Below are positions 21,912 through 30,451 of a stretch of DNA of 64,000 bases, piece by piece. The notes under the pieces are model-generated. The model was given only the letters and a program-made list of their open reading frames with translations. It searched no databases and was not told the DNA's origin. This stretch comes from Thermosynechococcus sp. NK55a. GTDB lineage: Bacteria > Cyanobacteriota > Cyanobacteriia > Thermosynechococcales > Thermosynechococcaceae. The DNA is taken from positions 682,001 through 746,000 of the forward strand of contig NC_023033.1 in NCBI RefSeq assembly GCF_000505665.1, written 5' to 3'. Every line of letters starts with the position of its first letter. Positions within the stretch are counted from its first letter, which is position 1. The position numbers and the translations under genes are program-made.

Positions 21912-22115
21912 ATGGGATTTGTGGACATTGCGATCGCGGATCTGGCGGCGGACTACGGCGTATCGGTCGAAACGGTCTGTGCGTGGTGCGATCGCTTAGG
22001 TATCCGCTATACCAGCCCACAAACACGCTTGCCCCTGGAAGATGCCAAAGCAATTATTTTGGCGTTGACGACCCCGGCGCCCGCCAACGATCAACCAGAC
22101 ACACCGCAATCGTAA
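21912..22115 (+). CDS. Small IF2_N-like / helix-turn-helix protein upstream of psbV
   Basis: 67 residues from ATG 21912, preceded by GGGGAGTGG at a usable distance. Residues 5-48 ([39 protein letters not shown]) have the pattern of the small three-helix domain at the N-terminus of translation factor IF-2: a helix, a GVS turn, a helix ending in LGI, then LxxEDA. The tail is Pro/Thr-rich. The stop is 21 bases before psbV on the same strand, so it may head the cytochrome transcript. Function not known; it could bind nucleic acid. Confidence 0.6.
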
Positions 22116-23850: not shown

Positions 23851-24876
23851 ATGCCTGCTGCTCCATTGCCAGCAAATGAATCGGAACGACAACGTGCCCT
23901 TGAGCAGTATCGAGTCTTAGATACGCCCCCGGAACCGATCTTTGACGAGATTACCAATCTGGCGGCAGCAATTTGCCAAACTCCCATTGCTCTCATTAGT
24001 CTGGTTGACCGCCAGCGGCAGTGGTTTAAGTCTAAGGTGGGCATTGATGCCTGTGAAACTCCAAGGGACGTTGCCTTCTGTGCCCATGTCATTCTGCAAG
24101 ATGAGCTAATGGTTGTGCCAGATGCTCGCCTTGATCCGCGCTTTGCCGATAATCCCCTGGTTACAGGCCCCCCCTATATCCGCTTCTATGCCGGGATGCC
24201 CTTGGTGACGCCGCAAGGGTATGGGATTGGTACCCTTTGCGTCGTGGACTACCAGCCGCGGGAGCTCAAACCTCTTCAACAGCAAACTCTGCGCACCCTT
24301 GGCCGCCAAGTCATTAATGAGCTGGAAATCCGCCATCACTTGGAGCTTACCCGGCAACAACTGGCCCACATCGAGCAGATGAGCAGTCTCCAAGGGGCGA
24401 TCCTCAATAGTAGTAACCACGCCATTATTGCCACCCGTACCGATGGCATCATTACCTTGATGAATCGAGCTGCCCAGGAATGGCTGGGATACCCTGCCTC
24501 AGAACTAGTGGGCAAAGCGACTCCCGAACGTTTTCATGATCCCCAAGAGGTGGAACGCTATGCTCAGATTCTCAGTGCACAATTGGGGGAATCCATTCCT
24601 GCGGGGTTTGAGACTCTGGTGGCCCGGGCACGGCGTGGCTTGGCGGATGAGCAGGAGTGGACATTTGTACGGCGCGATGGTTCTTGCTTCCCTGTGTCCC
24701 TGTCAATCACCCCAATTCATGATACCCAAGGCCAACTGATTGGCTTTTTGGAGTTGGCAGTTGATATTACTGACAAGAAAAAATTGAGGCGGAGCTGCGA
24801 CTGCGGGAGCGAGCCATTGTTGCCAGCACCAACGGCATTGTCATTACCGACTACCGCCAACCAGACAATCCAGTGA
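23851..24876 (+). CDS. LOV hybrid histidine kinase, N-terminal part (GAF-PAS), frameshifted
   Basis: 341 codons as read, of which about 313 belong to the real protein. Residues 15-165 form a GAF domain of the type found at the head of many cyanobacterial kinases ([38 protein letters not shown]). A PAS domain follows (about 180-300: [41 protein letters not shown]). At the A6 run 24779-24784 the frame is lost; the last 28 codons are a frameshift artefact ending at TGA 24874. One extra A would rejoin it to the rest of the kinase at 24873-27911. See the second part for the remaining domains. Confidence 0.85.
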
Positions 24877-27800
24877 TCTACGCCAATCCCGCCTTTGAGC
24901 GAATGACGGGGTACCGTGCTATGGAAGTGATTGGTAAGAATTGCCGCTTTCTGCAGGGGGGCGATCGCCAGCAGCCGGGGTTAGAAATGCTCCGCAATGC
25001 AATTAAAAAAGGTCAATCCTGCCGTGTAGTGCTGCGCAACTACCGCAAAAACGGCCAGCTTTTCTGGAATGAACTTGCCATCTCACCCATTTATAACGAG
25101 TTTGGCGAAATTACTCACTACATTGGCATCCAAAGTGATGTCACCGAACGGCAGCGGGCACAGCTGTTTTTACAGCAGCAGGTGAAGCGCACGCTCCTGC
25201 TCAATCGTATTACTGAGGAAATTCGCCAGCAAATCGAGCGGGAAAATATCTGCCGTACAGCAGTTCAGCAAGTAGGAGCAACCCTCAATGTCAGTCGTTG
25301 CCTTTTGTTTGTCTATCAGGAGAATGCCCCTTCGCCAATGCAACTGGTGGCAGAATACTGTGCGCCGGGAGTGCCCTCTGTCAATGAGTGCGACCTTGAT
25401 TTGACACAGATGCGTGCCCCGTTTCTGGTTTCGGTATTTGCCTCTGATGAGGTATTTAGCTGCGACGATGCGCAAAATGACGATCGCCTCATCCCCCTGC
25501 ATGCCTACTGCGAAGCCTTGAGTGTGAAATCTGCGCTGATTGTGCGCACGGCCTATCGCAATCAAGCCAATGGTTTACTCATTTTGCACCAGTGCGATCG
25601 CCAACGGCGGTGGACAGATGCGATTAAAAGTCTCGTCAAGAGTGTGGCGGCCCAGGTGGGCATTGGCCTGGCCCAAGTACAGCTTCTTGAACAGGAAACC
25701 CGCCAACGTCAGCAACTGCAACAGCAAATGCAGCGGGCATTGCTCCTAAATCAAATTACCGAACAGATTCGCCAAAGCCTCGATACGGAAACGGTCTTTG
25801 AAACTACTGTGACCCAAATTGGGCAGGCCTTTGGTGTCAATCGCTGCTTGATTCATCGCTATGAACCCGGGCCGCCCCCCCGCATTCCAGATGTGGCTGA
25901 GTATCTGGAACCGGGCTACGCCTCCATGAGAGGCATCAGTATACCAGTGGAGAACAATCCCCATGCCTTGGCAGTTCTCAATGCGGATGCTGCTGTTGTC
26001 ACCAATGATGTGACTCAGGATCCCCTTTTGGCTAATGCCATACACCTGTGCCATCAGTTCCAGATTCAGTCCATGCTGGCTATCCGTACCTCCTATAAGG
26101 GGGTGCCCAACGGCATCATTGGTCTGCATCAGTGCGATCGCCAGCGGCAGTGGACCCCCGAAGAAATTGAACTTTTGGAAGCCGTGGCCGCGCAAGTGGG
26201 GATTGCGATCGCCCAGGCGGAACTCCTACGCCACGAACAGCAGCAGCGACAATTACTCGCTCAGCAAAATCAAGAACTTGAACAAGCCCGCCTGCAAGCA
26301 GAACTGGCCAACCGTGCCAAGAGTGAATTTTTGGCCACCATGAGCCATGAAATCCGCACCCCCATGAATGCTGTTTTGGGCTTTACCAATTTGCTCTTGG
26401 ATACCCCCCTCAATGAACAGCAACGGGACTTTTTACAAACCCTGCACCAGGCCGGTGAGGCACTGTTAACGATTATTAACGACATCCTTGACTTTTCGAA
26501 AATTGAATCCGGCAAATTGGTGCTCGAGCAGCAACTCTTCGATGTCCGCGAGTGTGTTGAGGACGTCCTCAGTCTGCTTGCCAGCAAGGCCGAGGAGAAA
26601 CAACTAGAACTCCTCTATACCTGCACCCCCGAAACGCCAGCGCAAATCAAAGGGGACGTGACACGGCTGCGGCAGATTCTCGTGAACCTCGTGGGCAATG
26701 GCATTAAATTTACCCATGAAGGCCAAGTCGCTGTTCACCTAGGGGTGATCAAGCGCGAGGGCAAGGATTTTCTCCAATTTCAAGTTCAGGATACAGGCAT
26801 TGGTATTCCCAGCAATCGCCTCAATCGGCTCTTCAAGCCCTTTAGCCAAGTGGATGCCTCAACCACTCGCCAGTATGGCGGTACCGGCCTAGGGCTAGTC
26901 ATCAGCAAACGCCTCTGTGAGTTGATGGGCGGCGATATGTCCGTTGAGAGTACCGAAGGCCAAGGCACGACGTTCACATTTACAATCCTCGCTGAGGGAG
27001 CAAAACCCTATGTGCCGCCAATGGTTCATCCGGCTTTGGAAGGCAAGCGGGTCTTAGTTATTGATGACAATGCCGCCAGCCGTGAGAATCTCTGCACACT
27101 GCTGCAAAACTGGGGCATGTTGCCCATTGGCTATGGCGATCCCCAACTGGTTTTGGAGGCTCTGCCCCAATGGGATTTGGCGGTGATTGATTTGAATATG
27201 CCCCAAATGACCGGGCTTGAGCTGGCGGAGCGGTTGCAATCTCAGCCGTCCTTTCAGCAACAACCGATCGTGTTGCTCACGCCCCTGAGTTGGCTGGAAC
27301 CCCCGAGTCACAAACAACTGATTGCTGCTCACGTGCCTAAACCTATTCGCCCCTTGAGCCTGCGGCAAACCCTGATTAGGGTACTCAGTTGTGAACTGGG
27401 AACCCAGTCTGCACTGCCTAAAACAGGCATTGATCCTAACTTGGGCACTCGTTTCCCCCTGCGTATTCTGCTGGCCGAAGATAATGCGGTGAATCAGAAA
27501 CTGGCCTTGCACCTTCTCAAGCGGATGGGCTACCGCGCCGATGTGGCTGCCAATGGGCTGGAGGTGCTTGAAGCTCTGCAGCAGCGTCCCTACGACGTGA
27601 TCCTCATGGATGTGCAAATGCCAAAAATGGACGGACTAGAAACAACCGAACGCATCTGTGCTCAATGGCCTCCCAGTCAGCGCCCCTGGATTATTGCCAT
27701 GACGGCAAATGCCCTAGCGGGCGATCGCGAGCGCTGCTTTGCTGCCGGCATGGATGACTACATCAGTAAACCCATTAAAATTGAAGCCCTTGCCGCTGCC

Positions 27801-27911
27801 CTCAACCGCTGCCGCTGTCTCAATCCCAAGACCACCTATCCGCAACTGTGTGATCAGACGCACTTTGATAGCGACCATGGTCATCACAGTGCTACCCAAT
27901 CAATCAGTTAG
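24873..27911 (+). CDS. LOV hybrid histidine kinase, main part (LOV-GAF-GAF-HK-REC-REC)
   Basis: 1012 codons from a GTG overlapping the previous TGA; homology starts earlier, near 24785. Reading the frame upstream gives the beginning of a LOV domain. Its core is present: [22 protein letters not shown] with the photoactive cysteine (Cys24 here), [15 protein letters not shown] and GIQSDVTE, so all flavin-contact residues are visible. Two GAF domains follow (about 110-265, 285-440), then a coiled linker, HisKA with His492 ([12 protein letters not shown]), an HATPase (DTGIGIP, GGTGLGL) and two receiver domains with Asp773 (REC1) and Asp913 (REC2). It should sense blue light through FMN and relay phosphate. 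The partner is unknown. Confidence 0.85.
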
Positions 27912-28840: not shown

Positions 28841-30451
28841 TTAGATGCCACTGAGGGGATTGAACTGGTAGTTGGAGCCCTTGGGGCCATTGGGCCCCGG
28901 TGCCGCTTGGACGAGAGGAACCCGATTAAAGGTACCACTGGCGGTTTGCCCCTGAATTTGCACTCCTTGGCGCAGGAGCTGCTGGGTGCTGGCGCGATCG
29001 CCCCCTTTGGCCATGGCTTGGGCTAGGGCTTGGGTGGCATCGTAGGCCGTCGTGGTGCGCCAGCTAATCTGACCCCGCCACGCTTGCGCCGCCTGCTGAG
29101 CAAAGGGATCATTGGGGTTGGTACTCCAGGGCACCGCCAAAATCATGCCATTGATGGCACTATCTCCCTTGATCAAGAGATCGGGACCGTAGAGTTGATC
29201 ACTCCCAAAGAATTGTAGTGGCGGAGTCTGGGTTTGATTGGCGATCGCCAGGGCAACGGCCTCGTTGACTCGAGCGCGACTGAAGGCCAAAACCACCGCA
29301 TTGGCCGCCGCTTGCCGGGCCGCGGTCATCGCCGTGTTGGCATTAAAGCCGGCGGCCACATCCCTCTGTTGCACCACCTGAGCACCAAACTGCGGTAGGA
29401 CGGCTGTCAACTTGCTTTTCAGTTCATTGCTATAGGGACTATCGCTGTTGTAAAAAAGAGCCACCTTAGCATGGGGTACTTTTTTCGCTACAGCCTCAGC
29501 TAGGGTCTGAGCGGCATTGTCAAGGTAGGTGTTGAGGAGTTGTTTCCCTTTTTCATTGAGGGATAGCGTCTGTACCTGCACCCTACTGTTGCCTTGGGGG
29601 ATGACATTTGTGGTCAGGGGAGAAAGAGCGGCAATCCCTGCTTGTTCGTAAACCTGTAGGGCTGCACGACTGTTGGCGTCGGTCCCATGACCCAGTACCC
29701 CTTGAATTGAACTGTTGATTAAATCCTCGGCCAAGCTGGTCACACCGTTGGGGCTGTTTTCATTCACAATGACGACTTCGAGGGGACGATTAGGTGCACT
29801 GGCATTAAACTGTTCTTGGTATTGAGCCACACCCCGCAGCACTTCCTTGGCGGTATCGGGACTGGTGCCAATGGGAACAACGGCAGCCATTGTCATAGGG
29901 TTGCCAGCTTGGCGAGCACGGGCATTGTTGAGATAAATGCGTGACTCTGGATCATTGGGATCGAGGGCAACCAGTTCTTGATATTTGGCGATCGCCAGCG
30001 CCCAGTCTCCCCGATCAAAGGCAAGGGCGGCCTCCTGCTTGAGGGCTACTCGCTGGGGATTGGGTTCGCTGATGAGAATGCGTTCCCCTTGACTGATGTA
30101 GGCGGCGTTGCGGGCGGTGGTTTTGCTCACCAGTTGGCTGCCACTGGTCGATCGGCCCGACAGCGATGGCGGGTTATTCTCACGGTTGGTCAAGAACAGC
30201 CGATAACTGAGGAAGCCCATGCCGCCCATCAGGAGTAAAGCCACCCCAAGGGCCACAGCAACGAGGGGCAGGGGCGATTTTTTGCTGCTATTGGCCCTGT
30301 TCGCTGGCTCCATGGCCTCACGGGGGAGCCCACACACCGCACAGTCGGGGCCAAAATTTTCGTAGGGCGGATGGGCACCGCTGGCATTGGGGTAGGTTCT
30401 GCCGTTTTTAGGCACACCGTCGCAAATCCAAGAACTGGGAGATGGTGCCAT
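28841..30451 (-). CDS. Membrane-tethered ABC-type substrate-binding protein with zinc knuckle and TPR
   Basis: 536 residues from ATG 30451. The architecture is unusual: a cytosolic N-terminus with a short Cys cluster (WICDG and CAVCG, about residues 8-45), one transmembrane helix (LPLVAVALGVALLLMGGMGFL), a linker with a TPR-like pair (ALAFDRGDWALAIAKYQEL through NDPESRIYLNNARA, about 165-205), then a periplasmic type-I solute-binding domain (MAAVVPIGTSPDTAKEVLRG, VQTLSLNEKGKQLL, AKVALFYNSDSPYSNEL, AVVLAFSRAR, VNEAVALA), the Peripla_BP_6 fold used for branched-chain amino acids, amides and urea. No permease is adjacent. It could be a receptor rather than a transporter part. Confidence 0.85.
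   Translation of the reverse strand: MAPSPSSWICDGVPKNGRTYPNASGAHPPYENFGPDCAVCGLPREAMEPANRANSSKKSPLPLVAVALGVALLLMGGMGFLSYRLFLTNRENNPPSLSGRSTSGSQLVSKTTARNAAYISQGERILISEPNPQRVALKQEAALAFDRGDWALAIAKYQELVALDPNDPESRIYLNNARARQAGNPMTMAAVVPIGTSPDTAKEVLRGVAQYQEQFNASAPNRPLEVVIVNENSPNGVTSLAEDLINSSIQGVLGHGTDANSRAALQVYEQAGIAALSPLTTNVIPQGNSRVQVQTLSLNEKGKQLLNTYLDNAAQTLAEAVAKKVPHAKVALFYNSDSPYSNELKSKLTAVLPQFGAQVVQQRDVAAGFNANTAMTAARQAAANAVVLAFSRARVNEAVALAIANQTQTPPLQFFGSDQLYGPDLLIKGDSAINGMILAVPWSTNPNDPFAQQAAQAWRGQISWRTTTAYDATQALAQAMAKGGDRASTQQLLRQGVQIQGQTASGTFNRVPLVQAAPGPNGPKGSNYQFNPLSGI

Follow-up and report, generated by a model that had tools for sequence, protein, structure and literature searches.

The Thermosynechococcus sp. 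NK55a counterpart of tll1282 very probably encodes a soluble LOV hybrid histidine kinase whose reading frame is most likely split by an undercalled homopolymer

In the deposited genome of Thermosynechococcus sp. NK55a, the motifs of a LOV domain lie close to a point at which the coding sequence of a large histidine kinase changes frame. This locus raises the question of whether the domain is a LOV photoreceptor or another kind of PAS domain, and whether the gene is broken in the strain or only in the record. We analyzed the window, i.e., the whole stretch of 64,000 nucleotides (contig NC_023033.1, positions 682,001 to 746,000), along with the corresponding genes of 10 congeners. With high confidence, we take the gene for the counterpart of T. 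vulcanus tll1282, encoding a soluble hybrid histidine kinase with a canonical LOV photoreceptor domain; the break is most likely an undercalled homopolymer. The features, in window coordinates, are as follows.

23851..24876, plus strand: N-terminal open frame with GAF (residues 27-156) and PAS (residues 183-310) domains (ORF list, Pfam)
24774..24788, plus strand: frame break at a run of six A (24777-24782) (congener and homopolymer comparison)
24834..25148, plus strand: LOV domain core with PAS fold, GKNCRFLQ, paired Asn, and Gln (sequence, profiles, model, structures)
24873..27911, plus strand: C-terminal open frame, counted from its first ATG, GTG, or TTG codon, which is a GTG within the LOV domain (ORF list)
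24942..24944, plus strand: codon of the adduct-forming Cys, corresponding to AsLOV2 Cys450 (alignment to oat phototropin LOV2)
25038..25040, plus strand: codon of the first flavin-ring Asn, AsLOV2 Asn482 (same alignment)
25068..25070, plus strand: codon of the second flavin-ring Asn, AsLOV2 Asn492 (same alignment)
25131..25133, plus strand: codon of the signalling Gln, AsLOV2 Gln513 (same alignment)
25176..26250, plus strand: two GAF domains after the LOV domain (Pfam, PDB alignments)
26316..26987, plus strand: HisKA (SHEIRTPMN) and HATPase_c, residues 515-580 and 627-738 of the frame from 24774 (Pfam)
27045..27803, plus strand: two receiver (REC) domains, the second at frame residues 898-1010 (Pfam; start of the first placed by eye)

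The translation of 24774-25172 (plus strand) reads through a domain with LOV motifs. It was aligned to oat LOV2, a reference that agreed with 2v1a over its whole length. This alignment bore out the Cys codon, the Asn pair, and the Gln that the first-pass annotation had picked out from the sequence. GKNCRFLQ fits the LOV motif GXNCRFLQ, which carries the adduct Cys, and the motif is present in all 10 congeners, where the Cys, both Asn residues, and the Gln are also kept (10/10). The window shares 14 of the 20 AsLOV2 residues that we took to line the flavin pocket (N449, C450, R451, Q454, R467, N482, N492, and Q513 among them), and the other six are hydrophobic or aromatic replacements (I427V, V463L, I466L, F494L, L496I, and F509Y). 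Across 14 aligned sequences, the Cys and both Asn residues were found in every one and the Gln in 13. The controls lacked the Cys: in the same alignment, the first PAS domain of the same protein has Thr, and Pro and Val stand in the remaining two PAS matches from this genome. A second LOV domain in the genome was considered and rejected, since only three matches were obtained at 1e-5 and the other two (30% and 23% identity) are without the Cys.

Profile searches were in line with the alignment. Pfam assigned the region to PAS_9 (2.9e-24), and its matches there did not include a separate LOV model. When the isolated domain was compared with NCBIfam, the first match was the YtvA blue-light family (1.7e-45) and the second a LOV histidine kinase family (2.4e-39), so that the choice between LOV and non-flavin PAS, proposed earlier as a check, fell to the LOV families. 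The whole-protein cut-offs of both families were not reached (YtvA_fam, NF052652, 153.6-155.4 of 250 bits over profile positions 3-131 of 243; BluLightHisKinLov, NF052306, 132.0-135.1 of 450 bits), because the LOV part alone is shared. The N-terminal frame with the upstream PAS domain matched the LOV histidine kinase family at 3.5e-6. The best PDB sequence match to the LOV domain had an E value of 4.6e-44.

The best AlphaFold2 model, built with the 14 aligned sequences, had a mean pLDDT of 92 and a pTM of 0.83; the mean pLDDT of the other four models was 71-86. In VIA-align, where ranks less than 1 Z apart were treated as ties, the best 50 of 999 aligned chains were all LOV proteins or engineered LOV derivatives (Z 18.9-21.3), and the top Foldseek match was PF5-LOV (54% identity; rmsd 1.0). 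We conclude from sequence and model that the domain belongs with the cysteine-adduct LOV photoreceptors, apart from the ordinary PAS domains of this genome, and is predicted to bind flavin.

In the nearest congener, Pfam found a single frame of 1,374 codons with the order GAF-PAS-LOV-GAF-GAF-HisKA-HATPase_c-REC-REC, comprising three GAF, two PAS_9, and two receiver stretches. The array listed in the first-pass annotation (GAF, PAS, LOV, two GAFs, histidine kinase, two receivers) is thus correct for this congener and for the window. HisKA, HATPase_c, and the receivers follow the LOV domain in one chain, as in a hybrid histidine kinase; an Hpt domain was not among the Pfam matches to the kinase. 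That annotation had spoken of a repaired protein, whose domains are indeed there, but the deposited sequence holds two open frames, 23851-24876 overlapping the frame that is open from 24774. Two other genera of the family (L012 and the partly covered L014) share this arrangement, except that the LOV domain is followed by one GAF fewer. The best solved matches of the two post-LOV GAFs are, as we take it, cyanobacteriochrome-type GAFs. Bilin binding by these two domains was set aside, as the canonical Cys is absent from the alignments obtained: the Cys of 8k9o and 6oap, which we assume to be the bilin attachment site, aligns to a gap or to another residue (8k9o for both GAFs, 6oap for the second). 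Upstream of the kinase there are presumably two psbV-like genes and petJ, and downstream mtnP; this neighbourhood is kept in three Thermosynechococcus MAG loci (L021-L023).

The published primers for deletion of T. vulcanus tll1282 link the two genes. Primer 1F matches at window position 22034, upstream of the gene, and 2R at 24547, inside it, each with 1 mismatch; 4R matches at 29095, downstream, with 0 mismatches. For 3F, the window contained no match better than 5 mismatches. On the evidence of three of the four arm primers, the NK55a gene is the same locus as tll1282, with the difference that its reading frame is broken in the NK55a sequence. In the accessible text of a 2022 eLife paper, tll1282 (NIES2134_112750) is listed as a "putative photoreceptor LOV", with reference to Mandalari et al. 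2013 (PMC9090330). Hence, of the proposal of a blue-light sensory kinase candidate undescribed in this thermophile, the LOV domain in a hybrid kinase stands by sequence and fold, but the novelty does not: the counterpart had already been named and deleted. The gene is already known as a LOV photoreceptor candidate in the sister species, and the family is known. As a discovery, it therefore carries little weight; the kinase is conserved and constrained.

According to the same accessible text, all mutants, including the tll1282 ("LOV") deletion, still moved toward green light (positive phototaxis); failure of the blue-induced switch is described for the sesA mutant and not for the LOV deletion (PMC9090330). 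Since no change in phototaxis or in the blue switch is described there for the LOV deletion, the cellular light role remains putative. Titles and abstract openings on Thermosynechococcus LOV, mostly from outside subscription journals, contained no spectroscopy of this LOV domain, nor did the literature covered show flavin, a spectrum, or kinase activity. LOV domains of Anabaena have been characterized; the part of the literature on alr3170 that was covered contained nothing on LOV biochemistry.

About 50 nt 5' of the LOV core, the reading frame is interrupted by a one-base break within a poly-A run, and this break is missing from all 10 congeners. At the same position, six of them have seven A, and in the other four the run is interrupted by C or G, all being in frame. 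The open frame is uninterrupted in 10/10 congeners, with 1,352-1,400 codons; in one (G006), a TGA falls inside the matched stretch, near the C-terminal end judging by its slightly shorter frame. Three further loci (L021-L023) were left out of these counts and taken as duplicates, because, with identical frame lengths and LOV residues, they appear to repeat three genomes already among the ten. In NK55a, the N-terminal frame diverges from the ancestral one at about 24777-24783. Open from 24774, the C-terminal frame has as its first ATG, GTG, or TTG the GTG at 24873. The first LOV strand (E21-26 of the model) precedes this codon, and according to the model, a product begun there would be without it. 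Programmed frameshifting at the A run was ruled out, because the congeners with an interrupted run are in frame without it.

It is known that 454 chemistry undercalls homopolymer runs. For the NK55a genome (about 2,519,964 bp, with one unclosed gap), 454 reads of about 26-fold coverage were assembled with Newbler, and Sanger reads were used for finishing (PMC3907722). We compared indels between NK55a and its nearest congener only, in 247,381 aligned bases of 400,000, and counted one-base gaps standing alone between clean flanks, taking as frames those of 450 nt or more in one or the other genome and as homopolymer runs those of five or more bases. A first count (35 "broken in NK55a" versus 29 in the congener) had been discarded as too noisy, with many poorly aligned stretches. 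Within frames, gaps in runs numbered 8 in NK55a versus 1 in the congener. The NK55a frame was shorter in all 8 cases (once by just 45 nt), and the single gap in the congener left its frame unshortened; frame-shortening homopolymer losses thus amounted to 8 versus 0. Outside runs, 18 gaps within frames were found in NK55a versus 1 in the congener, and since only 5 of the 18 shorten the NK55a frame, many represent insertions on the congener side. In the aligned sequence as a whole, the counts for NK55a versus the congener were 12 versus 6 in runs and 31 versus 12 outside.

A comparable case is a gene outside the window (G000:C1:783534-784300; L084, L085), which we read as hisF and which is split into two frames at a G run that has one base less than its equivalent in the nearest congener. 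Searches for the hisF family gave two overlapping pieces in NK55a (profile 1-81 and 80-254) and no intact hisF over the family cut-off, only two weaker matches elsewhere (79 and 26 bits); as a control, 13 of 14 genomes were over the cut-off. It is improbable that a free-living phototroph lacks histidine synthesis; the hisF break, at least, is therefore probably a sequencing error, and the LOV break resembles it in kind. The break in the LOV frame thus serves as a warning: homopolymer errors have probably split real genes, including hisF, in the NK55a record, and claims of gene loss from this genome need checking.

Could the gene nevertheless be truly broken in NK55a, by a recent one-base loss in the A run that abolished the LOV kinase or left two fragments? 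We consider this unlikely, but of the alternatives it fares best. The break is present in the deposited sequence, and in the accessible text of the T. vulcanus study, the knock-out is viable and keeps positive phototaxis, so the gene is dispensable in the laboratory (PMC9090330). Selection was estimated from dN/dS. Before the break, dN/dS against the nearest congener (0.16) was slightly higher than between two congeners (0.12, the one pair compared), the whole range for the window copy being 0.09-0.16. After the break, it was 0.10 against the nearest congener and 0.08-0.10 against three congeners, with 0.08-0.09 in congener pairs. The values indicate purifying selection on the kinase and, being near those of the congener pairs, no clear relaxation. 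A true break is further opposed by the tendency of 454 sequencing to undercall such runs and by the distribution of the frame-shortening losses, all 8 of which fall in NK55a, including two within a single small gene and one that hits hisF. Moreover, the second frame offers no ATG, GTG, or TTG before 24873, which already lies inside the LOV core. Undercalling in the 454 assembly is most likely, and cells of the strain therefore probably produce a single chain of about 1,350 residues.

Other broken frames were seen in the record. Two of the 8 frame-shortening losses, separated by 83 bases, lie outside the window and break a single 154-codon gene, which we take to be PAM68-like (G000:C1:817417-817500). 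Inside the window, at about 44909 (G000:C1:726909), an A run with seven A versus eight in the congener breaks a 172-codon frame, by appearance a SixA-type phosphohistidine phosphatase.

Much less probable than a true break is that the domain is a PAS domain with a non-flavin ligand, or a LOV-like redox sensor instead of a light sensor. Some Cys-bearing LOV domains can indeed also report the flavin redox state. The accessible description of the knock-out without a phototaxis defect (PMC9090330) would suit this reading as well. It is countered by the Cys, both Asn residues, and the Gln, which are present in the window and conserved throughout the congeners, and by the nearest structures, which are LOV photoreceptors. 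Least probable of all is a contingency site, at which reversible slippage would switch or dilute the full-length kinase and split the mat cells into light-responsive and blind fractions according to run length: six congeners do have an in-frame seven-A run, but the tract is not conserved in the remaining four, and seven A are short for phase variation.

For the canonical LOV photoreceptor, a mechanism can be proposed by analogy with well-studied LOV proteins. FMN in the LOV pocket would absorb near 450 nm, and its triplet state would form a bond with the Cys (codon 24942). After adduct formation, the Gln (codon 25131) would flip, and the flanking helices and the two GAF domains may relay the change to the HisKA dimer. 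Phosphate would then pass from the His to the receivers and on to a downstream partner.

Among the matches listed, the closest solved sequences and folds were the Pseudomonas short LOVs (PF5-LOV, 7r5n; PpSB1-LOV; PpSB2-LOV), with 41-54% identity and the same adduct motif; these are short LOV proteins, whereas the NK55a domain is internal to a GAF/PAS hybrid kinase. Brucella LOV-HK (3t50, 6ph2-6ph4; 37-41% identity in the LOV domain) likewise has a LOV sensor that drives a histidine kinase, but its LOV-PAS-HK arrangement, which is without receivers, is unlike the NK55a array. Kinase LOVs of thermophiles with solved structures are Cagg_3753 of Chloroflexus aggregans (the parent of CagFbFP) and Mrub_1259 of Meiothermus ruber, with 40-50% identity; both genera belong to phyla other than that of NK55a, and their structures also run against the idea that LOV sensors of thermophiles were undescribed. 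The solved LOV structures further include C. islandicus, which, like M. ruber, is a thermophile. C. aggregans is described in the accessible text of PMC8131319 as a thermophilic phototroph. The LOV domain of Bacillus YtvA (2pr5, 2pr6), the protein whose family was the first NCBIfam match, is 39-41% identical; according to the accessible part of PMC10949197, YtvA is a LOV-STAS protein. Unlike the NK55a protein, it is not a kinase.

In a survey of the class, 175 of the 291 genomes drawn had a match to the LOV domain at 1e-20 or better, the weaker of which may be other PAS domains. In Sphaerotilus hippei (L025:5001-5402), a LOV-like domain with 56% identity keeps the Cys and the Asn pair, but Ile replaces the signalling Gln and Ser-Cys-Ser replaces Asn-Cys-Arg. 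An archaeal LOV domain was found in Haloglomus halophilum (L028:5001-5354), with 51% identity, the Cys, the Asn pair, and the Gln, in a frame of 1,103 codons.
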